DNA of 64,000 bases, from NCBI RefSeq assembly GCF_014284155.1, contig NZ_JACOFZ010000001.1, positions 620,001 through 684,000 on the forward strand, given 5' to 3'. Positions 18,545-30,125 of this stretch are shown here, piece by piece. Origin of the DNA: Affinundibacterium nitidum. GTDB taxonomy: Bacteria; Pseudomonadota; Gammaproteobacteria; Burkholderiales; Burkholderiaceae_D. Both the position numbers and the translations under genes were made by a program. The notes under the pieces are model-generated. The model did no database searches. It had not been told where the DNA came from and saw only the letters and a list, made by a program, of their open reading frames with translations. Position 1 is the stretch's first letter. Every line of letters starts with the position of its first letter.

Positions 18545-19354
18545 TTAACGTGGTCGGGTAATGTGGTCAATTCCGGATTTCAATTCGGTTCGTTCGAATT
18601 CATCGGTTGGCGTATAACTACAAAAACCGTAGACAATTTTCTCATCAATGTCTAGACCATTGAACATTTCTTCCGAGATCGCACGAGGATAATCAAAACC
18701 CTGTTTAATATACCATCGTACAAATGTTCCAACCAAAGCCCAACGGCTTCGATGGGCGGTATTCTCAAGAGTCGCATGCCAAATACGGCTATCCCAAATC
18801 GCGATATCTCCAGGTTCAGCCTCTAGTGCTATCGCCATTGGATTATCACCTTGAGGCGCATAAGCCCCGCTTAAATGAGAGCGTGGAATCAATAGAGTAC
18901 AACCATTATCGCGTTTCGACTCCTCTAAGAAAAGAACCGTCTGAACTACTGACGTGTAGTCACCAGGATAAGGAATAAACGAATCAATATGATAAGGCAT
19001 TGCACCAACTGAACTTCGCAAAAGCACGCTACGGAGAATGTAATTGGGTAAATCCTCGGGAATACTCCGATAGTATTTATCGTTCAACAGCGCTCGTAAA
19101 ATATCACCGCACAAACCACGAATGAAGTGGCGTACGACTTCAGGTTTTTTTGCGGGGATATTATAGATGGTCGCACCATATCCATTTAATCGCTGCTGAT
19201 TCGCAGTCAAGACTTCCCTCTCTTGCTCCGAGTACTCAAATGAATTCGCAAAATCTAACAGGTCCGCGACAAGCTCCTGTGCAATCGCATCCTTAATGAC
19301 AACATATCCGTTCTCTCGAACAGCATTCACATAATCATTTAAAGTATTAATCAT
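18545..19354 (-). CDS. PhyH-type Fe(II)/2-oxoglutarate dioxygenase, last gene of glycan operon
   Basis: About 269 residues from ATG 19354, which has AAGG upstream; a GTG at 19360 overlapping the preceding stop is the alternative. Phytanoyl-CoA dioxygenase (PhyH) fold: metal ligands HID in the MPYHIDSF segment and a distal His in SRIWHATLEN, with the 2-oxoglutarate Arg probably in the SRWALVG segment. Such enzymes hydroxylate small molecules or sugars. It shares the family with the upstream gene, but the two are clearly divergent. Its position in a sugar-modification operon suggests hydroxylation of a glycan or acyl group; the substrate is unknown. Confidence 0.78.
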   Translation of the reverse strand: MINTLNDYVNAVRENGYVVIKDAIAQELVADLLDFANSFEYSEQEREVLTANQQRLNGYGATIYNIPAKKPEVVRHFIRGLCGDILRALLNDKYYRSIPEDLPNYILRSVLLRSSVGAMPYHIDSFIPYPGDYTSVVQTVLFLEESKRDNGCTLLIPRSHLSGAYAPQGDNPMAIALEAEPGDIAIWDSRIWHATLENTAHRSRWALVGTFVRWYIKQGFDYPRAISEEMFNGLDIDEKIVYGFCSYTPTDEFERTELKSGIDHITRPR

Positions 19355-19356
19355 AT

Positions 19357-20202
19357 TCACTTACCTTCGCTGATTTTGAAAACCCGACGTACCTGATCTG
19401 GCACGGGAAAATCTGTTCTTATCGGTGCCCTTGTTACTGACCTGTTGTATGCGGAGGGATAAATTCGATCAACAAAACTTGATTCATCGCCATTGTCAAA
19501 TCGAGTCGAGAGTGCGACCCTTAACCGATTCTTTTCGCCATCGATAGCGCTACGATGAACTGTAAACAAAGACATAAACACAACGTCACCTGGTTCTGCT
19601 TCTAACTTAACGAATTGATCTTCCCGGTAGTGCTTTGGATCCAATTGCCACTGCGCTTTTTCATCTGAAATTGTGGGTATCAAGCCCTGCATATGGCTAC
19701 CTGGAATTACTTCAAGTGGGAAATTGCTCGAGTCCACTTTCACAAGTGGCAACCACACTACTACTCCATCCAAACTCCCTTGCACCGAAGGAAAATCTTG
19801 ATGAGCCGATATACCAAAGTAGCCGTCTTGAATGCGTAATTCATGGGACATAATTAAAACTATCTGACCGCCAGGCACGAAAATATCACTCCATACAAAT
19901 TGATCACGCAAAAACTGGATTATTTTTTCATGATGCATTAACTGATACACATCAAGTTTCCGCCAGAGAGCGGACACAGTCTTCTTGTATTGAGAAAGAT
20001 TCTTGTGAAATAGTCGCTGCATAAGTTCAAACAACAAACCGTCCGAAAAATCCTCGGATGAATGAGACAATTTAAGCTGTTCAACAAAATTTTTGATCAA
20101 CGAGTCACGAACACGTAAAACATCAGCTTTGGGCAACAAACCATTCGCTACATAATATCCGTCACGGCAATATTGCTTGACGACTGCACCACGTTTTTTC
20201 AT
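19357..20202 (-). CDS. PhyH-type Fe(II)/2-oxoglutarate dioxygenase
   Basis: 281 residues. PhyH family features: a metal-binding HQD in SAHQDFPS, EVIPGSHMQG, an EPGDVVFM turn and a distal His in FTVHRSAIDGEKNRLR with the following Arg available for 2-oxoglutarate. Its ATG directly follows the TAA of the upstream gene (TAAATG), and its stop lies two bases before the next ATG. Very tight packing supports a single operon. Two different dioxygenases in one glycan cluster suggest two separate oxidation steps. The substrate is not predictable from sequence. Confidence 0.8.
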   Translation of the reverse strand: MKKRGAVVKQYCRDGYYVANGLLPKADVLRVRDSLIKNFVEQLKLSHSSEDFSDGLLFELMQRLFHKNLSQYKKTVSALWRKLDVYQLMHHEKIIQFLRDQFVWSDIFVPGGQIVLIMSHELRIQDGYFGISAHQDFPSVQGSLDGVVVWLPLVKVDSSNFPLEVIPGSHMQGLIPTISDEKAQWQLDPKHYREDQFVKLEAEPGDVVFMSLFTVHRSAIDGEKNRLRVALSTRFDNGDESSFVDRIYPSAYNRSVTRAPIRTDFPVPDQVRRVFKISEGK

Positions 20203-21171
20203 TTAAGGACACTCCGAATTTGATAAATGACATAATCGCGCGATACCAATCCCTGTTTGTCCAAAGCCATTACCGTTGTATAGCATATAGGTTTGATCGA
20301 GATGAGAAAACACATCGGGGTAGGCCTGCATAAATGAATCCCATCCTTCCTCACTGAGTGCAATTCCCGCCATCTCGTCCATTCTCAGCCATTGAATACC
20401 ATCTGTTGATTCTGCATATCCAATCCTATAGCTAGCATTTCGATCGGAACTGTAATTAACCAATTTCCGATAGCAGAACCACATTTGGTAGGTATTACCA
20501 CGTTTTAGAACACTTGCCCGCGCTACTGCTCCCTCTTCATCGTCCTTAAAATCAATCGCAACTTGACCATATCTGCGCCAATGAATCCCATCATCTGACT
20601 CTGCATATTTTAGGTGATAGCGAGGTTCTGCCTTCCCATTGACCATCCTCCATTCTGTACACGACAAATACCAATTACGCCAAATACCGTTTTCAATCTG
20701 AATACATGCGGTCGCACAGAAAAATGGCTCATCATGGCTTCTATCCATCACGGGTCCATTGAAAAGCCGGCGATAGCTTGCACCATCATCTTCACTAATC
20801 GCTAAGCCAATTGAATTGTGGTAAGGAATTGTGTTTCTCACGTTCCAACCGATGTAATACAAATATTTTGTTCCTTGATGTGTCAACACGGCGGTCGGCA
20901 TCACACCACAATCATCGAAACTTCCTAATGTTCCCAAGCCAAGAACAGGTTGCCCTTGAACAGAAATTATCTTTTGAAGATTGTTTTTATCAACAGAAAA
21001 ACGCCCTATTTGGCTACGACTATTTTGATCTCTTGCACTGAAAAAAACTTGCAATTCATCCTTGCATGACACATCAATCGTAGGCATTTGGGTATGGCTT
21101 TTAGCCCATGGCAAGTGTTCCTCTGCCCGAAAAATAACTCCTTTCTTATCCCAAACAAATGTGCGACTCAT
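20203..21171 (-). CDS. Glycosidase-like five-bladed beta-propeller protein (GH43/GH32-like)
   Basis: 322 residues with repeated blade-like segments: QVFFSARDQNSRSQIG near the start, LGTLGSFDDCGVMP, KYLYYIGWN, YLSCTEWR, HLKYAESDDGIHW, YRIGYAESTDGIQW and YMLYNGNGFGQTGIGIA. The paired YAESDDGIHWxR/YAESTDGIQWLR motifs are typical of glycosyl hydrolase 43/32-like propellers found in surface polysaccharide loci. Catalytic carboxylates cannot be assigned with confidence, so it may bind or remodel sugars rather than hydrolyse. There is no signal peptide, so it acts in the cytoplasm. Confidence 0.68.
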   Translation of the reverse strand: MSRTFVWDKKGVIFRAEEHLPWAKSHTQMPTIDVSCKDELQVFFSARDQNSRSQIGRFSVDKNNLQKIISVQGQPVLGLGTLGSFDDCGVMPTAVLTHQGTKYLYYIGWNVRNTIPYHNSIGLAISEDDGASYRRLFNGPVMDRSHDEPFFCATACIQIENGIWRNWYLSCTEWRMVNGKAEPRYHLKYAESDDGIHWRRYGQVAIDFKDDEEGAVARASVLKRGNTYQMWFCYRKLVNYSSDRNASYRIGYAESTDGIQWLRMDEMAGIALSEEGWDSFMQAYPDVFSHLDQTYMLYNGNGFGQTGIGIARLCHLSNSECP

Positions 21172-21221
21172 TCCTTAATTCCTCGCGACTAGTCAACTAC
21201 AACATTAAACACAGCACCCAA

Positions 21222-21884
21222 TTAAAAATGGATATCACGACTTGATACCGAGGACTTAACAGCCGGATTGCCTTTATAAACACTCCAAGGCTCAGTATTC
21301 TTAAACACAGCCGCCGCCATCGAGATCAAGCTACCCTCCGCAATGACTAAGCCATCTCGAATCGTAGAATTTACGCCAAAAAAACTGAAGGGTTCAACAA
21401 CACAGTGCCCTGACAAGACAACATGCGAAGTAAACATAACATGGTCTTTAATTTCGCTATGATGCCCAATGTGATTACCACTCCACATCACTACGTTATG
21501 ACCAATCGTAACGAAAGGTTGAATGGTATTGTCTTCCAGAATAAAGCAATTATCGCCAATCTGATTATTGAAATGCGTGGATTTTGAGCTGACATAGCTA
21601 ATCATTCGATAGCGCTTGGCTTTAATCTCGTGATAGACATCGTGACGAACACGATTCATCTTAGCCGGTGACATAGGTGCAAAAAAAGCGTAAGCCGTTG
21701 GAGGATAAAATGTTTCCACTGTTTCAAACGGCACAACGGGCAAACCGAAAAAGCTTGTCTCTTTTATATACGCCTGATGCACAGAGAAGGCAACAACTTC
21801 ATGCTCACTATCGTTTGTTAGGTAATAGTGCGCCAATTGGGCGAAATCATTAACACCAAAAATGATCACCTTTTCCTTAAGCAT
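21222..21884 (-). CDS. NeuD/PglD-type sugar O/N-acyltransferase
   Basis: 220 residues from ATG 21884, chosen for the strong TGGAGG seven bases upstream; a longer reading frame would overlap the preceding methyltransferase gene. The N-terminal PglD-like Rossmann part begins KVIIFGVNDFAQLAHYYL. The C-terminal part is a left-handed beta-helix of hexapeptide repeats (IGDNCFILEDNTIQPFVTIG, IGHHSEIKDHVMF) with a likely catalytic His in the GHHSEI turn, and ends with the VYKGNPA signature. It probably transfers an acetyl or related acyl group to an amino sugar made by the upstream aminotransferase. Confidence 0.82.
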   Translation of the reverse strand: MLKEKVIIFGVNDFAQLAHYYLTNDSEHEVVAFSVHQAYIKETSFFGLPVVPFETVETFYPPTAYAFFAPMSPAKMNRVRHDVYHEIKAKRYRMISYVSSKSTHFNNQIGDNCFILEDNTIQPFVTIGHNVVMWSGNHIGHHSEIKDHVMFTSHVVLSGHCVVEPFSFFGVNSTIRDGLVIAEGSLISMAAAVFKNTEPWSVYKGNPAVKSSVSSRDIHF

Positions 21885-21909
21885 ATTGCCTCCAAATAGG
21901 GGGGTCTTT

Positions 21910-22545
21910 TTAACGGTAGATGTAGACCGTATATTCATACAAGCCATAATCATTGCGGATCACAAAATTTCTACTAATATTCTTCACAAGGAAATCGGCC
22001 AACATATCCATCGGCAAATGAAATAAATCATCGCGTTCCCAATCAACATGACTCGACATCACATTAAAGGCAATTCCAAAACGTGCTTTTTCAAAGGCTA
22101 CTTGAATAAGACGACAAAAATAAAATCTCATTTCATCAAAAGTGAGATTACGCTTTTCAGTAAAAACACCATTCAATACGATATAGTCAAACATTGGCAA
22201 CTCAGTTGAGCTCTCCAATATATCCATACAATAAAAGTCGACCACAGGAAATTTTTGCTTACAAAGTTCAATGAAGTGCTGTGATAAATCAAGTCCTGAA
22301 TAAATAAGACCGTCATATGAATTTGACTGCATATATTCAAGCAGGTGCGCGGCACCACAACCAAAATCCAGAATACTTATTTCTTGTGCGGGACGCTTAG
22401 CTGGTATCAGCCCCAGCATCACACGATATCGAGTTTCAGCATCTTCAAGTTTTGGCCAATCGACACCACGATGTGAATCACCAAATTTTTCAAGGCAAGA
22501 CTCATAATGCTCCACGATATGTAGATATGATTTGTCACTTTTCAT
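21910..22545 (-). CDS. Class I SAM-dependent methyltransferase
   Basis: 211 residues. The SAM-binding motif I appears as ILDFGCGAAHLLEY, followed by an acidic end of strand 2 (YSGLDLS) and motif IV-like FDYIVLNGVF. The remaining half has no special features. It overlaps the upstream methyltransferase gene by 11 bases. The likely role is O- or N-methylation of the glycan; the acceptor is unknown. Confidence 0.82.
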   Translation of the reverse strand: MKSDKSYLHIVEHYESCLEKFGDSHRGVDWPKLEDAETRYRVMLGLIPAKRPAQEISILDFGCGAAHLLEYMQSNSYDGLIYSGLDLSQHFIELCKQKFPVVDFYCMDILESSTELPMFDYIVLNGVFTEKRNLTFDEMRFYFCRLIQVAFEKARFGIAFNVMSSHVDWERDDLFHLPMDMLADFLVKNISRNFVIRNDYGLYEYTVYIYR

Positions 22546-23644
22546 ATTGAGACTCAGTCTTAAACTTTACAAATAAGGCCTTACCACAAGAAAAAACAAA
22601 TTCAATTTTTTCGACATAACGCTCAACCAGCGTATCTCCGACCCTTTTTGGGCCATCACCGTGGACCCAAAAATAATCATCTAAAATTAAACAGCCGCCT
22701 GGTTTGATCAGCGGAACCCATAGTTCACAGTCAAGCTTCACTTTTTCAAAGTCATGATTACCATCGATATGAATAACAGAAATCTTGCCTTCGTAATTCG
22801 TCACACCAAACTCCGCGGACGTTATTTGTTTCTGTTCACAATAAACATTAAATGCGTCAACCGACTCTGCTTGATAATAATTTAGATAGCCTAAGCCCAC
22901 TGGCAAAGTGTTGACGCAAAAGTCTTGTGGCAACATTCGATAATCCCATTCGCCAGGAAGGTCAACACCGGCGGTAACTGGCGAGTCTTTTTGAATGGAT
23001 GCATGAAGCTGCCAAGGGTCTATTGCAAGCACTTTGCCTAATTCAAAACGGCGTGCCAGAAAACACATTACAGCAACAGACCTTCCTACTAAAGAACCAA
23101 TTTCTATGACATCACCTCTAGGAACGCCAGCAAATATTCCCATCATTGCAGCGATCTTCTGTTCGTTTGTTTCGCCATAAATATGTCGAGCCATACGAAA
23201 AATTGCGGCGATTTCCAAATCTTTAAGAGGCGAGACTACGCCTGCACAAGTATCAATAAAATCTCTGTATTGGTCTACCGTTCCCATCAGCTGATCAAAG
23301 CGTTTGACTTCACTCTTGATGGGCGAAGCCCCTAACAAGCGAATCGACAGATTGTTTTGCGAGATAAATTGTTCTAACCAAGTAAATACGGCTGCGACGG
23401 GTGCATAGATTGACGTGACTCGATAACTTGCAACCAACGATATAAAAGCCTCAGAAAAGTCTGTGTCGACGACATAGGGCAATAAATGCAATTCACCATA
23501 TTGACTCACAAATTCTGGATCTTTAATCGATGACGCCAAAACAAGTTTATCGCCACGTTGATTAGCAGACTCGATATACGCACATCCTTCAGGATGATTC
23601 GCTGGAAAAATCAAAGTGGCGTTGCTCATTTCAACTGCATTCAT
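22535..23644 (-). CDS. Two-domain protein with C-terminal class I methyltransferase (Methyltransf_24-like)
   Basis: 369 residues. The N-terminal 130 residues look Rossmann/pre-ATP-grasp-like (NATLIFPANHPEGCAYIES; SIYAPVAAVFTWLEQF) but no ATP-grasp domain follows. Residues about 170-365 form a methyltransferase with VIEIGSLVGRSVAV as motif I, VLAIDPW, VIHIDGNHDFEKV and LILDDYFWVHGDGPK, the class often seen with macrocin-O-methyltransferase or cephalosporin hydroxylase-like proteins. The ATG overlaps the upstream stop by four bases. It likely methylates the sugar or its acyl substituent; the role of the N-terminal domain is unknown. Confidence 0.72.
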   Translation of the reverse strand: MNAVEMSNATLIFPANHPEGCAYIESANQRGDKLVLASSIKDPEFVSQYGELHLLPYVVDTDFSEAFISLVASYRVTSIYAPVAAVFTWLEQFISQNNLSIRLLGASPIKSEVKRFDQLMGTVDQYRDFIDTCAGVVSPLKDLEIAAIFRMARHIYGETNEQKIAAMMGIFAGVPRGDVIEIGSLVGRSVAVMCFLARRFELGKVLAIDPWQLHASIQKDSPVTAGVDLPGEWDYRMLPQDFCVNTLPVGLGYLNYYQAESVDAFNVYCEQKQITSAEFGVTNYEGKISVIHIDGNHDFEKVKLDCELWVPLIKPGGCLILDDYFWVHGDGPKRVGDTLVERYVEKIEFVFSCGKALFVKFKTESQYEK

Positions 23645-24366
23645 ATGAAGTCTCTTTGAAGTAGCATTTTCTTTATTTCAGAAATAGGGTTATACATCAT
23701 TACATCAATTATGGAGAGTCCTGGCACAAATTCAGATACCGTTCCCTTCTTTCCTAGATTATGTTTTTGCAGGTAGGAATTCAGCTGAGGTTTTATAAAT
23801 TCCAATTGAATTTCTTGCGCTGAGAAATTCGTCTTATTGTATAAATCTATTCCACCGGGCAAATTCACATACCGGCCAGCACGCTCCAACTTACAAATAT
23901 CTAAAATTCGTGGTTCTGCATGCAGATGTTGATTATGAAAATGAGCAGACGAACAAATTAGCTCGGTCTGAATATCCAACAACTGCATCATGACTTGTAG
24001 GCTATAAATAATGAACTCGACTAGATGATTTGTCGAATTCAAAAATATGCTCTCAACAACGGGATAAACTTCTTGAAAATAAGGTGCATCTTTGTACGAC
24101 TGCCCTATCATCTTTAGTATCTTACTTACTCGGACAACATCTCCCACCAGCTCAACTTCATTAATTTGAGCCCGTTGTGGCGCATTCTTAACAGGCAAGG
24201 TAAACAAATGTGCCTCACCGTTCAACAAAATTCTATTTCGATGAACCCACCCGCGCTTTATAAATTGCACGTCATCGAACAACACAAAACGATCAACCGC
24301 TGCAATTAATTGGAAATAGCCTATATAAGGTAAAAAATATGGCTGCATAACAGCGATGCTCTTCAT
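23641..24366 (-). CDS. WbqC family protein
   Basis: 241 residues, complete. WbqC family landmarks: MQPYFLPYIGYFQLIAAVD, FVLFDDVQFIKRGWVHRN and a C-terminal SIIDVMMYN segment. The family occurs next to sugar aminotransferases in O-antigen and glycan loci, but its biochemical role is not settled; it is often thought to act in nucleotide-sugar tailoring. Here its start overlaps the aminotransferase stop by four bases (ATGA), so the two are almost certainly used together. Confidence 0.85.
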   Translation of the reverse strand: MKSIAVMQPYFLPYIGYFQLIAAVDRFVLFDDVQFIKRGWVHRNRILLNGEAHLFTLPVKNAPQRAQINEVELVGDVVRVSKILKMIGQSYKDAPYFQEVYPVVESIFLNSTNHLVEFIIYSLQVMMQLLDIQTELICSSAHFHNQHLHAEPRILDICKLERAGRYVNLPGGIDLYNKTNFSAQEIQLEFIKPQLNSYLQKHNLGKKGTVSEFVPGLSIIDVMMYNPISEIKKMLLQRDFI

Positions 24367-25496
24367 AACTCTCCAGCATTTTTTATCAAATGAATGACTA
24401 ACTCTAAGGAATCATCGGTTAATGCAGGAAAGATTGGTAAACACAGAACTTTTGACGCCAATTGACGAGCTACAATTAGATTTCCATGTTCCGCTGATGG
24501 CAATCCTCGGTACATAGGAAACTCCGTAATTAACGGATAGAAATACCGCCGAGCAAAAATATTATGCTGTTTTAAACGTGCAAACAAGGTATCTCGATCA
24601 ATTGGATATGCATCTTCAAGTAACACTGGGAAATAAGCGAAGTTCGGCACTTCGCCGGCAACATCCTCAAGATAACGAAGCCCTTTCAAGTCTTTGAAGG
24701 CGGCGCGATATCTATCTGAAATACGCTTGCGCTTCGCTAATGCAACGTCAATTCCCTTAAGTTGCAATAGTCCAAAAGCAGCATTGACCTCACTCATCTT
24801 GCCATTGATGCCTAAAGACACGACCGTCGCGTCATCTACAAAACCAAAATTCTTTAAATGATCAATACGACGTTTATCTTTTTCACTATGGCAGACAATT
24901 GCGCCACCTTCAAAGGTATTAAATACTTTGGTCGCATGAAAACTTAATACCGACAAGTCTCCATGATTAAGAATACTTCCTTCTGCATTTTGAACACCAA
25001 AAGCATGTGCGGCGTCGTAAATCACTTTTAGTCCATAGTTGTCGGCAATTTTTTCAATACGATCAACATCACATGGATGCCCATAACAATGTACAGGCAA
25101 GATCGCCGTCGTTTGCGGTGTGATTGCCGCCTCGATTTTTGCAGGGTCCAAGTTCATAGAATTGGGATCTATGTCGACAAATACGGGCTTGATTCCGTTC
25201 CATAGTAATGAGTGCGCCGTAGCGACAAACGAATAAGGTGTCGTTATTACTTCGCCGGTAATTCGCAAAGCCTGTAATGCAGTTACTAACGCGATTGTGC
25301 CATTAGTAAATAGGGATATATGTTTTACGCCCAAGTAAGCGGCAAGTTCAGCTTCTAGCTGCTGATGAAACGGACCATTATTTGTGAGCTGTTTGTTCTC
25401 CCAAATTTCCTGTAGGTATGGAATAAACTCTGCAAGAGGTGGTAACAACGGTTGTGTGACAAACAAGGGATTTTGCGGCACTTTTAACTCAGTCAT
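24363..25496 (-). CDS. DegT/DnrJ/EryC1/StrS-family sugar aminotransferase (VioA-like)
   Basis: 377 residues from ATG 25496 (TAGGA six bases upstream); an in-frame ATG at 25511 is the alternative. PLP enzyme with the internal-aldimine Lys in SFHATKVFNTFEGGA, the PLP phosphate-binding TNGTIALVTAL and Asp in IYDAAHAFG. The sequence style (LTNNGPFHQQLE, PYSFVATAHSLLWNG) resembles aminotransferases making 4-amino-4,6-dideoxyhexoses such as dTDP-viosamine. The regiochemistry is inference. It would supply an amino-sugar nucleotide for the neighbouring acyltransferase and GT41 enzyme. Confidence 0.85.
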   Translation of the reverse strand: MTELKVPQNPLFVTQPLLPPLAEFIPYLQEIWENKQLTNNGPFHQQLEAELAAYLGVKHISLFTNGTIALVTALQALRITGEVITTPYSFVATAHSLLWNGIKPVFVDIDPNSMNLDPAKIEAAITPQTTAILPVHCYGHPCDVDRIEKIADNYGLKVIYDAAHAFGVQNAEGSILNHGDLSVLSFHATKVFNTFEGGAIVCHSEKDKRRIDHLKNFGFVDDATVVSLGINGKMSEVNAAFGLLQLKGIDVALAKRKRISDRYRAAFKDLKGLRYLEDVAGEVPNFAYFPVLLEDAYPIDRDTLFARLKQHNIFARRYFYPLITEFPMYRGLPSAEHGNLIVARQLASKVLCLPIFPALTDDSLELVIHLIKNAGEL

Positions 25497-25545
25497 GTTA
25501 AATCCTAGCAAAATTCAATCTGATGTTGGGCCAGCTCTAAGGCAA

Positions 25546-28014
25546 TTAATTTTCTGGGATCTCAAATGCGTCTAATGGCATACCAGAACACCAATTTAAC
25601 CACATTTGTTTTAAAGCACTTGCCAGATAGTTTGCTATACGATCTGGTTGAAATTTAGGTGACGCTAAGCAGCGACTTCTCAGATTTTTCCTTATATCTG
25701 CCAAAGCGTTGCGATTCTTGGACCAAAACACACCTAATTCAATAAAAGTTTTTTCGTCCTTTGCAACCATCTCCTGCAAACCTGCATGCGTCATCAGACA
25801 ATAACCATTACGCGATACCAGTTGATTACCTTCGATACTCAATGTTGGCACTCCCATCCATAATCCGTGCAAAGTAGTGGTAGCGCCGTTGTATGGGAAA
25901 GCATCAATACACAAATCAATTTGCTTATATTGTTCAAGATAAACAGGCATACTTGAACGATAAAACACAATTAGTCGGCCTCGGTCGATTCCACGACGTT
26001 CAAATCGCTGGATAAATTCTTCCAGCTGCTCGAATCCCGTTGGAATGGACCCTAAAAACAATTTGGAAGCAGGAACTTCGTGCATCAGCCTACACCAAAT
26101 GGCAATAGTTTCCTCATTGATTTTGCTGATACGATTGAAAGTACCAAACGTAAACCAATCCTTTTCCAAACTTGGCAAAGGAGAGATTTCCGGCGCTAAT
26201 TCAAACGGCTCGAACGGTGCAGAACTGGGCAAATTACAAAGCTTTTCTGTAAAATATCGAGATTGTTCTTGAATTGGGGTTAAAGAACTTTCACTGATAA
26301 AATAGTCCATTGCACCCAAGCCCGTCGTCCCTGGATAACCAATCCATGACACCGCAATTGGTGCTGGCTTCATTGCGAAAAGCGTAAGTCGATTATTTGA
26401 AGTATGCCCGGAGAGGTCGACGAGGATATCAATACTGTCTTTTCTAATCAGTTCATATACATCGTGGTCATTGCGATGTTTGATAACTGCCCATGAAAAA
26501 AAGAACTGCTTAAGCTTTTCGGTGACCTTGTCAAAGGTATCTCCGTTGTAATAAGCATGCAATTTAAAACTGGAATTCGCAGACAAATTTTTTAATATGG
26601 GTCCAACAAAAGAAGCAACAGCATGGTTATTGAAATCTCCAGAAACAAATCCAACGTTCAAAACGCGTTGCGCATTTTTTGAGCGCCCGTCTGTTTCCCA
26701 AGTTTGTTTGAGAGCTGATTCGTGAATTTTGCCAAACGACCGATGTTGCGAGAAAAGTTCTTCCGGACTAATCGCAGCTGATTCGGTCAACATAAAGAGG
26801 AGACTTGTATGCGCCTCACTGTCTCTCTGGTTTACTGCCAAAGCCATCCGAAAATATCTCTCTGCACTAGTAAGATCAAAATCTAATGTTTGACTAATCT
26901 GTCCAAGGCACCGCAATGCACCCCCAAGTTGCGGATCGAGTTCGATAGCTTTCAGAAAATAGGGTTTCGCCTGATCGTACTTCTTTTCTCTAAAGTAGAC
27001 GCTTCCAATATTATTGTACGCATCTGCAAACTTCGGATTAAGTTCGATTGCTCGACGCAATTGGGTCAATGACTCTTCATTTTTACCGAGTTTGTGCAAA
27101 ATTGATCCAAGGGCGTTGCAAACATCTGGGGAACTAGGCGCTGCTTTTAAGGCTTTCTTTGCCTCGACTAACGCTTTTTCGAGCTCGCCCTTTTCCTTAA
27201 GAATCCCGACTAAGTTGACCCGCGCTATGTAAAAGTCTTTATCAAAACGGATCATCATCCGCAAATAAGACTCAGCCTCATCCAATTTCCCCTGCTTTCG
27301 AAGGCAATTGCCGAGGTTATTATATGCAGCAACCAATTGGGGATTAAGCCTAATTGCTTGGCGAAAGTGTTTTTCAGCTTCTCCTAGAGAGTTTTGCTTA
27401 CTTAATAGAGAGGCTAAATTGAAATGAGCAATTGCATCTTTCGGTAGGAGTTGTACTGCAATTTCCATCGCATATTGACTTTCTATATACCGCCCTTGAT
27501 CAAACAATGAAATGCCCAGGAATCTCCATGACACACCGTCTTCAAGCTTGATACTAATTAAATGCGACGCTAGCCTATCTAGATCAAGGTATCGCCCTTC
27601 GCGATATAGAAGTTCAAGCGACTCGCTTGCATTAGGGAAGATTAATTCATCATTGAACTGTTGGCGTGCAATTTCGATGGCTTCCCTTGAAGCCGATGAA
27701 TCATTAAAAGTTTGTATCAGTCGAATATATGAATGCCAGTAAATAATACTTTGTGGAGCCAATTGAATTGCGTTCTCGAGACATGGCAGCGCATCTTGAG
27801 TCGCTCCGACTTTAGTCAAGATATCCCCTAACATAAATTTCGCTAGTGGTTGATCTGGTTGTACGTTGAGAACTTGATTAAGGAATGTGATTGCGGCCTC
27901 AAATTCATTTTGATCAATCTGCTGCTTCGCTTTGGTAAGTAAAAGAGCAATATCCTGATCATTCAAGACATCTTTTCTTGGCATTGCTGTCGCCACAGGC
28001 TTCTCAAACTCCAT
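25546..28014 (-). CDS. TPR plus OGT-like (GT41) glycosyltransferase, candidate flagellin O-glycosyltransferase
   Basis: 822 residues from ATG 28014, preceded by GGGAGC at good spacing (an ATG four codons upstream is the alternative). Residues about 20-400 are tandem TPR repeats (for example AHFNLASLLSKQNSLGEAEKHF and its copies). Residues about 410-815 match the SPINDLY/O-GlcNAc transferase catalytic region: NVGFVSGDFNNHAVASF, DILVDLSGHTSNNRL, PVSWIGYPGT-like AVSWIGYPGTTG, and IDLCIDAFPYNGATTT followed by VPTLSIEG. There is no signal peptide, so it acts in the cytoplasm. The first gene of the operon, divergent from fliC with a 311-bp gap, it is the obvious candidate to modify flagellin Ser/Thr. 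Confidence 0.88.
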   Translation of the reverse strand: MEFEKPVATAMPRKDVLNDQDIALLLTKAKQQIDQNEFEAAITFLNQVLNVQPDQPLAKFMLGDILTKVGATQDALPCLENAIQLAPQSIIYWHSYIRLIQTFNDSSASREAIEIARQQFNDELIFPNASESLELLYREGRYLDLDRLASHLISIKLEDGVSWRFLGISLFDQGRYIESQYAMEIAVQLLPKDAIAHFNLASLLSKQNSLGEAEKHFRQAIRLNPQLVAAYNNLGNCLRKQGKLDEAESYLRMMIRFDKDFYIARVNLVGILKEKGELEKALVEAKKALKAAPSSPDVCNALGSILHKLGKNEESLTQLRRAIELNPKFADAYNNIGSVYFREKKYDQAKPYFLKAIELDPQLGGALRCLGQISQTLDFDLTSAERYFRMALAVNQRDSEAHTSLLFMLTESAAISPEELFSQHRSFGKIHESALKQTWETDGRSKNAQRVLNVGFVSGDFNNHAVASFVGPILKNLSANSSFKLHAYYNGDTFDKVTEKLKQFFFSWAVIKHRNDHDVYELIRKDSIDILVDLSGHTSNNRLTLFAMKPAPIAVSWIGYPGTTGLGAMDYFISESSLTPIQEQSRYFTEKLCNLPSSAPFEPFELAPEISPLPSLEKDWFTFGTFNRISKINEETIAIWCRLMHEVPASKLFLGSIPTGFEQLEEFIQRFERRGIDRGRLIVFYRSSMPVYLEQYKQIDLCIDAFPYNGATTTLHGLWMGVPTLSIEGNQLVSRNGYCLMTHAGLQEMVAKDEKTFIELGVFWSKNRNALADIRKNLRSRCLASPKFQPDRIANYLASALKQMWLNWCSGMPLDAFEIPEN

Positions 28015-28206
28015 TTTTGCTCCCATTTTTTACTACGGAACAGCAGAATTAATCACACAATTTAGTCAAATATTAACAAAATCTAATGAATTCAAAACTG
28101 AAAATAGGCATAAAAAGACCCTCAAGTATTTTGAAATGCTGCCGTTTAACGGAATCTCAAAAAAAAGTTTATAGCAAAAATAAAAAATTTACTTTAGGCA
28201 ACTCCT

Positions 28207-28325: not shown

Positions 28326-30125
28326 ATGGCTTCATTTATCAATACAAATATTGCGTCCCTCAATGCACAACGCAATCTCACAACATCACAATCAGCGTTA
28401 AACACCTCTTTGCAACGCTTGTCTTCAGGTTTGCGTATTAATAGCGCAAAAGACGATGCAGCGGGTTTAGCGATTTCCGAACGTCTGTCTTCACAAATCG
28501 GTGGTTTGAATCAAGCGGTTCGTAATGCCAACGATGGTATCTCACTTGCGCAAACAGCTGAGGGTGATTTAACTCAGATTGGTGCAAACTTGCAACGCAT
28601 CCGTGACTTGGCTGTGCAAGCAGCCAACGGTTCAAACAGCGCAAGTGACCGCGCTGCGTTAAATAACGAAGCTTCTCAGTTGATCGACGAGATCAATCGT
28701 GTTGCAAGCTCCTCTAACTTCAACGGTGTTAAGCTTCTCGACGGTAGCTTTACATCCCAATCTTTCCAAGTGGGTGCAAACTCTACTTCGAACGACCAAA
28801 TTTCGATCGCTTCAATCGCAAGTGCGAAATCTTCTGCGCTCGGCGTTGGCTCCAGCTCAAGCTACAGCACTTCAATCGCTGGCGGCACGAATGGTATCGG
28901 TTCATTGACAAGTGGCGACTTGGTCATCAACGGCTATAACATCGGCGCAAGCTCTTCAGATGGCGTTTCCTACGCTGCGTCAAGTGGCAGCGCGATTGCG
29001 AAAGCAGCTGCAATCAATGCCGCGAGCAGCCAAACAGGTGTAACAGCAACAGCACAAGCAACTACAGTAGCTGGTACAACTGTCACTACATCAGGTACTG
29101 CAATCGCAGCAGGCGATATCAAGATCAACGGTGTCGATATTGGTGCATTGGCTGCTGCTGGCGGCGTCGCAGAACGCGGAGCCCAAGTTGCTGCTGCTGT
29201 TAATGCTAAAACAAGTCAAACTGGCGTAACAGCGACATTTGACTCAACTACTGGCGCGGTTGCACTGACTGCTACTGACGGTCGCAACATTAATATTACC
29301 AAATCTGGTAATGCAGGTTCTGCGGACAACGTCACTGGTTTGACAGTTGCTGGCTTCACAGGTGCAGCTGCTGGTCAAGCAACGACAGTAGGTACCATTT
29401 CTTTAGCATCCACAAGCTCTGCTGGCATCGTGTTAGCAAACGGCGGCACAGGTACTAAAACTGGTGCAGCGACTACCGACACAAACACTACAATAGCTGC
29501 TGGTGACATCAATATTAACGGCGTTGACATCGGTGCTAACACTGCCGGTACCACGGCGGCGACAAATGCTGCGAGCATCATCGCTGCTATTAATGCAAAG
29601 ACAGCGCAGACTGGCGTAACCGCGAGCGGTGACAACACCGGTATTATCTTGACTGGCGCAAATAATGCGGGTTTCACGGTAAAAACTAAAGGTACAGCTT
29701 CCCTTACAGCAACTGGTTTCGCGGTAGGAACCACAACAGTCAGCGGTAAAGGTGCGAATGCAAGTGGTTTAACAGCGGGTTCAACTTCAGCAACGGCAAC
29801 CGTTGGTGCAGGTGTCTCCTCCGTTGATTTGACTACAGCGACCGGTGCCACATCAGCTTTGACGACTATCGATGCAGCCTTGGCCAACGTCAATGCTTCT
29901 CGTGCGTCTCTCGGTGCTTACCAAAACCGTTTCGCATCTGCAGTCAGCAGCTTGAATACGACTTCTGAGAACTTAACAGCTTCTCGTAGCCGTATCCGTG
30001 ACGCAGACTTCGCGCAAGAAACAGCGACGTTGACACGTGGTCAGGTCTTGCAACAAGCAGGTACAGCGATCTTGGCTCAGGCGAACGCGTTACCACAAGG
30101 TGTGCTCGCACTCCTCCGTGGTTAA
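28326..30125 (+). CDS. fliC: Flagellin
   Basis: 599 residues, larger than a minimal flagellin. The conserved N-terminal D0/D1 region (about 1-170; [33 protein letters not shown]) and C-terminal region (about 500-599; [13 protein letters not shown], ending [11 protein letters not shown]) bracket a Ser/Thr/Ala-rich centre with three FlgIN-like repeat units. The protein polymerises as the filament. A strong AAGGAG lies seven bases before ATG. Two candidate sigma-28 promoters precede it, and a hairpin follows the stop. The adjacent divergent glycosyltransferase operon makes it a likely O-glycosylated protein; attachment would be expected in the exposed central domain. Confidence 0.97.
28911..29054 (+). 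repeat. FlgIN-like unit 1 within fliC
   Basis: Residues 196-243. Begins [13 protein letters not shown] and ends [13 protein letters not shown]. It is the most divergent of the three in-frame copies; the spacing between INGxxIG and QTGVTA elements is 25 residues or so, as in the other two. Confidence 0.7.
29109..29240 (+). repeat. FlgIN-like unit 2 within fliC
   Basis: Residues 262-305 (44 residues). Begins [13 protein letters not shown] and ends [13 protein letters not shown]; close in sequence to unit 3 and of identical length. Confidence 0.8.
29499..29630 (+). repeat. FlgIN-like unit 3 within fliC
   Basis: Residues 392-435 (44 residues). Begins [13 protein letters not shown] and ends [13 protein letters not shown]. 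Nearly the same as unit 2 at both ends while the middle differs, which suggests duplication followed by divergence. Confidence 0.8.

Follow-up and report, generated by a model that had tools for sequence, protein, structure and literature searches.

We propose that nine genes beside the flagellin gene fliC of Affinundibacterium nitidum constitute an island for glycosylating flagellin whose sugar cassette is exchangeable, a reading to which we assign a probability of about 0.6. The locus lies in a stretch of 64,000 nucleotides (assembly GCF_014284155.1, contig NZ_JACOFZ010000001.1, positions 620,001 to 684,000), referred to here as the window. It encodes an O-glycosyltransferase with tetratricopeptide repeats (TPR) and a GT41 domain, a DegT aminotransferase, a WbqC protein, a NeuD-type acyltransferase, two methyltransferases (MT1 and a Methyltransf_24 protein), a GH130-like propeller protein and two PhyH-type dioxygenases. 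While GT41 islands with variable sugar genes at fliC are already known, the combination of WbqC, propeller and PhyH appears to be a new variant.

The nine open reading frames (ORFs) are all on the minus strand and span positions 18545 to 28026 in the ORF list of the window. Their spacings as called are -4, 0, 50, -44, -11, -4, -4 and 34 bases, and the 44-base overlap would vanish with an internal ATG, probably the real one, as the start of the NeuD-type gene. On the plus strand, fliC begins at 28326, 299 bases from the divergent GT41 start. The first-pass annotation, made from the DNA letters alone, had described a nine-gene minus-strand operon with gaps or overlaps of at most about 50 bases and a GT41 gene divergent from fliC, which the ORF list and the spacing confirm. 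Pfam agrees with the gene families it named, the propeller being recognised by its fold and not by its sequence. In the Pfam scan, the TPR-GT41 protein is the sole recognised transferase among the nine genes, and no polymerase, flippase, Wzx/Wzy or ABC exporter is found among them. Residues 171-510 of FliC consist of 29% Ser/Thr.

The space beside fliC varies in content among close relatives. In four genomes of the same genus, the region between the GGDEF gene and fliC either has no called gene (L111) or contains a GT41 gene with a different gene set (L112, L113 and L114). By Pfam, the L112 set comprises a nucleotidyltransferase, a 4,6-dehydratase, a dTDP-sugar-isomerase-family protein, a C-methyltransferase, a hexapeptide acyltransferase and an epimerase; L113 shares this layout. 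The curated-model scan covered L112 and L114, in both of which a glucose-1-phosphate cytidylyltransferase and a CDP-glucose 4,6-dehydratase exceed the curated cut-offs; L114 additionally contains a PhyH dioxygenase and a TylF-like methyltransferase. Because the slot is empty or differently filled across these four genomes, it seems to be a site where sugar pathways are exchanged, each accompanied by its own GT41. The low G+C content of the island (41.6%, vs 45.5% before and 46.5% after it within the window) fits this view. Beyond the four same-genus genomes, only L115 and L119 have a GT41 catalytic match in the stretch in our same-family fliC sample (20 of the 90 genomes with a match).

An Undibacterium metagenome-assembled genome (MAG; L037) shares the SpoT-GreB-NarL-GGDEF flank, with SpoT 86% identical, and has the same cassette minus Methyltransf_24 on a contig that ends inside GT41. 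Four of the window proteins are about equally similar to their homologues in Paraburkholderia (L041) and in L037 (propeller 59/59%, NeuD 62/62%, WbqC 44/43%, MT1 58/53%), which suggests that part of the cassette has been exchanged. DegT (65/74%) and the dioxygenases (42/69% and 33/58%) are closer to L037.

The best solved matches of the window GT41 include OGT and SPINDLY, and K635 is kept in 24 of 24 aligned rows. In the tree, it belongs to a clade of 11 domains (support 97/96), ten of which have DegT, WbqC and propeller genes nearby, including L097 from the same genus. The GT41s of the same-genus CDP-sugar islands fall into another clade together with L115 (99/99). Since the window GT41 shares its clade with cassette-bearing loci, the tree argues for an OGT-like transferase that goes with the sugar cassette and its product and not with the species. 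The branch of the window row is long (1.37), and the composition of this row is odd. Strict tracking of the cassette by GT41 was rejected: over 29 domains the cassette label needs 6 changes vs a shuffled mean of 8.6, and 20 of 500 shuffles reach 6. Two further GT41 genes of the same A. nitidum genome (L108 and L109; G000:C11, about 733-735 kb and 1416-1419 kb) are placed in a third tree group, with no cassette-gene match beside either.

The propeller served to trace the cassette in other genomes. It was found in 29 of 300 genomes of the order, which are a draw from a larger group and include A. nitidum itself, and at 31 loci in a pattern-based scan of GTDB species genomes. The latter began with short exact peptide patterns and therefore recovers mostly near relatives; it is not a census. 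Its loci include Burkholderiales, Vibrio, Bacteroidota, Paenibacillus, Acidobacteria, a planctomycete, Prochlorococcus and an archaeal MAG, in which the cassette has a divergent form. Within 10 kb of the propeller, the 31 database loci contain DegT in 27 cases (here any DegT at E 1e-5, a lax label), WbqC in 26, NeuD in 26, MT1 in 16 and PhyH in 18, with DegT, WbqC and NeuD together in 23. For the 28 order loci outside A. nitidum, the numbers are 27, 19, 19, 4 and 6, and 11 for the three together. The GT41 domain, counted by its catalytic part alone, is present within 10 kb at 8/31 and 15/28 loci, and at 4/5 (database) and 9/11 (order) of those with a flagellar gene in the stretch. By its distribution, the cassette is a general sugar module, with flagellin as one of its uses.

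Of the 31 database genomes, 9 have a Flagellin_N match up to 35 kb from the propeller on its contig, 3 have one apart from it, 6 are represented by contigs under 20 kb and 13 have no match; for the 29 order genomes the counts are 13, 8, 3 and 5. The distances use 47 of the listed match positions, mostly those of the best matches and of matches on the propeller contig; two of the 47 are match ends. With the nine genomes on contigs under 20 kb set aside as unresolved, flagellin is within 35 kb in 13 of the 21 order genomes and 9 of the 12 database genomes that can be resolved, far above chance, which we estimate at a few percent. In Paenibacillus (L049), flagellin is 17.6 kb from the propeller. 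In Aliiglaciecola (L055), the order is WbqC, NeuD, propeller, FkbM methyltransferase, PhyH, a further gene and DegT, after which come a Maf-type transferase, encoded on the opposite strand, and flagellin. Proteins of about 300 residues, alike by eye, adjoin the cassette in L055 (12555-13469; a gammaproteobacterium) and in a Bacteroidia MAG (L050, 11640-12530). The L050 protein has no Pfam match; our guess is that both are sulfotransferases.

The proposed pathway would start from dTDP-4-keto-6-deoxyglucose, supplied by RmlA and RmlB, whose genes score above their cut-offs at a separate rml locus of the genome. That locus (L110 9762-15241; G000:C43, about 222-227 kb) also carries a second DegT and a small protein that, by eye, we take to resemble an FdtA/QdtA-type isomerase, and a different 3-amino sugar may therefore be present on the surface polysaccharide. 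Judging from its family, the window DegT would aminate the 4-keto sugar at C4, yielding a dTDP-4-amino-4,6-dideoxyhexose (Qui4N or Fuc4N). Its closest solved chain is 2PO3 (229 bits), and K195, presumably the pyridoxal phosphate lysine, is kept in 58 of 59 aligned rows. DesI is the best NCBIfam model for this DegT and for nine of ten other scanned cassette DegTs, the tenth being without a match at 1e-50. In Vibrio RE86 (L046), rmlB-rmlA directly precede DegT-WbqC-NeuD-propeller, which are followed by a GT56-like protein. GT56 uses dTDP-Fuc4NAc, and a neighbour of this kind is consistent with a dTDP-4-amino-4,6-dideoxy sugar.

WbqC and the NeuD-type acyltransferase may then build an N-linked substituent, with an amino acid probably added by WbqC and an acyl group by the NeuD-type enzyme, in which H161 is kept in 44/46 and H164 in 45/46 rows. 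The predicted fold of WbqC matches the BshC structure 4WBD over 228 of 241 residues, a likeness that came only from a second look with VIA; Foldseek alone gave nothing for the model at E ≤ 0.001. BshC, the cysteine-adding enzyme of bacillithiol synthesis, presumably links an amino acid with an amino sugar, although according to a review its activity was yet to be demonstrated in vitro (PMC4360819). Unlike BshC, WbqC has less than half the length and shows no sequence-profile similarity. Its profile has no match better than E 0.33 among PDB sequences, and hhalign gives a probability of 0.3% (46 WbqC vs 6 BshC sequences), no better than the 0.1 to 0.4% of the other cassette profiles (five were compared; the DegT row, identical to the MT1 values, is not relied on). 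WbqC is therefore not filed as BshC and is treated as a candidate amino-acid:amino-sugar ligase with a BshC-like predicted fold. It is possible, although we do not favour it, that WbqC acts at another step, for example as a nucleotidyltransferase, and that the NeuD-type enzyme alone makes the amide. This alternative rivals one step of the pathway, so its weight is not additive to that of the alternatives discussed below.

One or both methyltransferases and the two dioxygenases would modify the sugar or its side chain. Dioxygenase 1 keeps H124-x-D126 in 14/14 and the distal H195 in 13/14 aligned rows, and dioxygenase 2 keeps H134, D136 and H216 in 15/15, the window rows included; these H-x-D...H triads presumably bind Fe. 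The Methyltransf_24 gene is present at 0/31 and 2/28 relative loci and is missing from the syntenic L037, and is apparently a local addition. Its protein matches a phage methyltransferase family in PHROGs, which has no match for the propeller or dioxygenase 1. The propeller scores 23.1 with Pfam GH130, below the gathering cut-off of 26, but its predicted model (predicted local distance difference test, pLDDT, 95) has the GH130 fold with five blades. Several acidic residues are conserved, and a pocket containing these acids in the modelled protein is the probable site where a sugar is bound and processed. It differs from the described GH130 and GT108 five-bladed propeller enzymes (PMC8950772, seen in part) in its sub-cut-off Pfam score, in its 11 to 18% identity to the eight best VIA rows and in residing in apparently biosynthetic cassettes. 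Nine loci have two GH130-like propeller copies (L088, L089, L090, L091, L093, L094, L096, L097 and L099), in tandem in eight and oppositely oriented in L099; in five of the nine, the stretch also contains flagellar genes. This Burkholderiales variant is mostly without NeuD (NeuD in 1/9).

In the final step, TPR-GT41 may move the product onto Ser/Thr residues of FliC in the cytoplasm before export, a step proposed on the model of FlmG and of the Dickeya island described below. As a broader and frankly speculative extension, which we hold to be doubtful as a whole, DegT-WbqC-NeuD-propeller would be a horizontally shared cassette for an aminoacylated 4-amino-4,6-dideoxyhexose. In this extension, WbqC proteins (PF08889) would be BshC-like amino acid:amino sugar ligases, the propeller would be a GH130/GT108-like enzyme recruited to biosynthesis, and the carrier would vary: flagellin via GT41 (Burkholderiales) or Maf (Aliiglaciecola), and surface polysaccharide in Vibrio.

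Several findings weigh against the flagellin island reading. No Flagellin_N match was detected in 13/31 and 5/29 propeller genomes (the 31 include MAGs, so some may be gaps), and flagellin is distant or on another contig in 3/12 and 8/21 resolvable genomes; adjacency alone thus does not fix the target. The same-genus genome G209 carries GT41-DegT-WbqC-propeller-propeller (L097 5448-11327; G209:C10, about 952-958 kb) on a contig without flagellin. The link between GT41 and cassette is moderate over all 29 rows, and L115, the best-scoring GT41 (671 bits), is in the CDP-island clade and lacks WbqC and propeller in its stretch. Regarding the enzymes, the window DegT is far below the DesI equivalog cut-off (299.6 vs 650 bits), the best solved matches of the NeuD-type protein are LpxA-type acyltransferases (35 bits; VioB 24.5 bits), and the hhalign comparison did not link WbqC to BshC. 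A FliA-type site upstream of the GT41 genes of four relatives reaches at best 9/12 positions. The candidate FliA-type promoter of the window operon matches 10/12, but as the window contains 24 sites of this quality it was dropped as evidence. G209 also has a CDP-sugar GT41 island at fliC besides its L097 cassette, which has no recognised flagellar gene near it.

The genomes without detected flagellin and the G209 cassette away from fliC would be expected if the cassette served a surface polysaccharide or proteins other than FliC, its place at fliC being incidental. Vibrio RE86 points in the same direction, with a Wzy-like protein near the cassette (Wzy_C 29.3 bits, slightly below its 31.7-bit cut-off) and its flagellins on other contigs. 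We consider this explanation unlikely for A. nitidum, as the nine genes include no polymerase or flippase and only TPR-GT41 as a recognised transferase, three of the four same-genus genomes have other GT41-sugar sets in the slot beside fliC, and proximity to flagellin is far above the estimated chance level. It is also conceivable that GT41 places plain N-acetylglucosamine on FliC while the remaining operon acts on something else. The alignment with OGT and SPINDLY agrees with this, and the available part of PMC4875605 suggested N-acetylglucosamine derivatives for island GT41s, with a wider specificity possible. However, the window GT41 clade follows the sugar cassette and not the genus, and the operon has no second recognised transferase unless the propeller is one, making this quite improbable. 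The first-pass annotation had named flagellin as the target and the routine recurrence of the operon in O-antigen loci far from flagellar genes as an observation that would speak against it. Recurrence away from flagellar genes is in part what we find, in genomes without detected flagellin, the Vibrio polysaccharide locus and the same-genus GT41 cassette away from fliC. The flagellin target is upheld by GT41 and amino-sugar genes at fliC in a variable slot, but a flagellin-specific pathway is not; FliC is the best target available, with partial support.

Similar islands have been described, and our comparisons refer to the available parts of the cited papers. Enterobacteriaceae islands combine variable sugar genes near fliC with GT41, including CDP-4-keto-6-deoxyglucose types (PMC4875605). 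FliC of Dickeya dadantii measures 32170 Da in the wild type and 31034 and 28890 Da in two transferase mutants, one of the genes being OGT-type (PMC6637903). The window shares with these islands the site beside fliC, GT41 (OGT-type) transferases, nucleotide-sugar aminotransferases and methyltransferases, and a content that varies among close relatives. It differs in its dioxygenases, a word found nowhere in PMC4875605, and in WbqC, a term in neither PMC4875605 nor PMC6637903; no propeller is mentioned in the available parts. The nearest described chemistry we found is the viosamine island of Pseudomonas syringae, where VioA, VioB and VioM make an N-acylated, O-methylated Qui4N for flagellin, with 3-ketoacyl-ACP synthase (KAS) III, ketoreductase and acyl carrier protein (ACP) genes for the 3-hydroxybutyryl group and a 1173-residue VioT (PMC3927599). 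The window DegT and NeuD types bear some resemblance to VioA and VioB, at scores below the family cut-offs, whereas the nine genes lack the KAS III, ketoreductase, ACP and VioT families and include WbqC, propeller and PhyH instead. Caulobacter FlmG joins a flagellin-binding TPR domain to a glycosyltransferase domain and uses pseudaminic acid (PMC7591256). The predicted architecture of the window GT41, N-terminal TPR and C-terminal glycosyltransferase domain, is similar, but the window aminotransferase scores well under the PseC cut-off (231 vs 423.5).

The first-pass annotation could not match the gene combination to a described pathway. Our search of the open-access literature likewise found no published description of it and no paper joining 'WbqC' with 'flagellin glycosylation'; the resemblance to the VioA/VioB route qualifies the claim. 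No flagellin-island paper among the matches listed contains the word dioxygenase, and WbqC is named in no title or abstract of the open-access papers containing the term, several occurrences being chance letter strings. No name for the DegT-WbqC-NeuD-propeller cassette was found. The gene calls are given in Table 1. A 172-residue antisense ORF (29375-29893, minus) inside the fliC variable region is probably a by-product of the repetitive fliC coding sequence.

Table 1 Genes of the putative glycosylation island and adjacent fliC, in window coordinates.
Feature	Position	Strand	Basis
PhyH-type 2-oxoglutarate-Fe(II) dioxygenase 1, 271 aa	18545..19360	-	Pfam PhyH 71.3 bits
PhyH-type dioxygenase 2, 281 aa	19357..20202	-	Pfam PhyH 48.9 bits
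GH130-like five-bladed propeller protein, 322 aa	20203..21171	-	weak GH130 match and predicted fold
NeuD/PglB/VioB-type hexapeptide N-acyltransferase, 243 aa	21222..21953	-	Hexapep 43.5 bits; NeuD_NnaD (TIGR03570) 136.5 bits, below cut-off 160.8
Class I S-adenosylmethionine methyltransferase MT1, 211 aa	21910..22545	-	Methyltransf_25 35.2 bits
Methyltransf_24 protein, 369 aa	22535..23644	-	Pfam 60.8 bits
WbqC, 241 aa	23641..24366	-	Pfam WbqC 219 bits
DegT aminotransferase, DesI/VioA-like, 382 aa	24363..25511	-	Pfam DegT 338 bits
TPR-GT41 O-glycosyltransferase, 826 aa	25546..28026	-	Pfam Glyco_transf_41 156 bits and TPR
fliC flagellin, 599 aa	28326..30125	+	Flagellin_N 159 bits, Flagellin_C 88.9 bits

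The proposed tie to the amino-acid-adding enzyme of bacillithiol synthesis gives the WbqC family a testable chemistry. One sugar cassette is used near flagellin as well as polysaccharide genes and ranges from Burkholderiales to Bacteroidota and Bacillota, with a divergent form in an archaeal MAG. Flagellin glycans affect immune recognition and phage binding, and a swappable cassette is thus a plausible source of rapid change.

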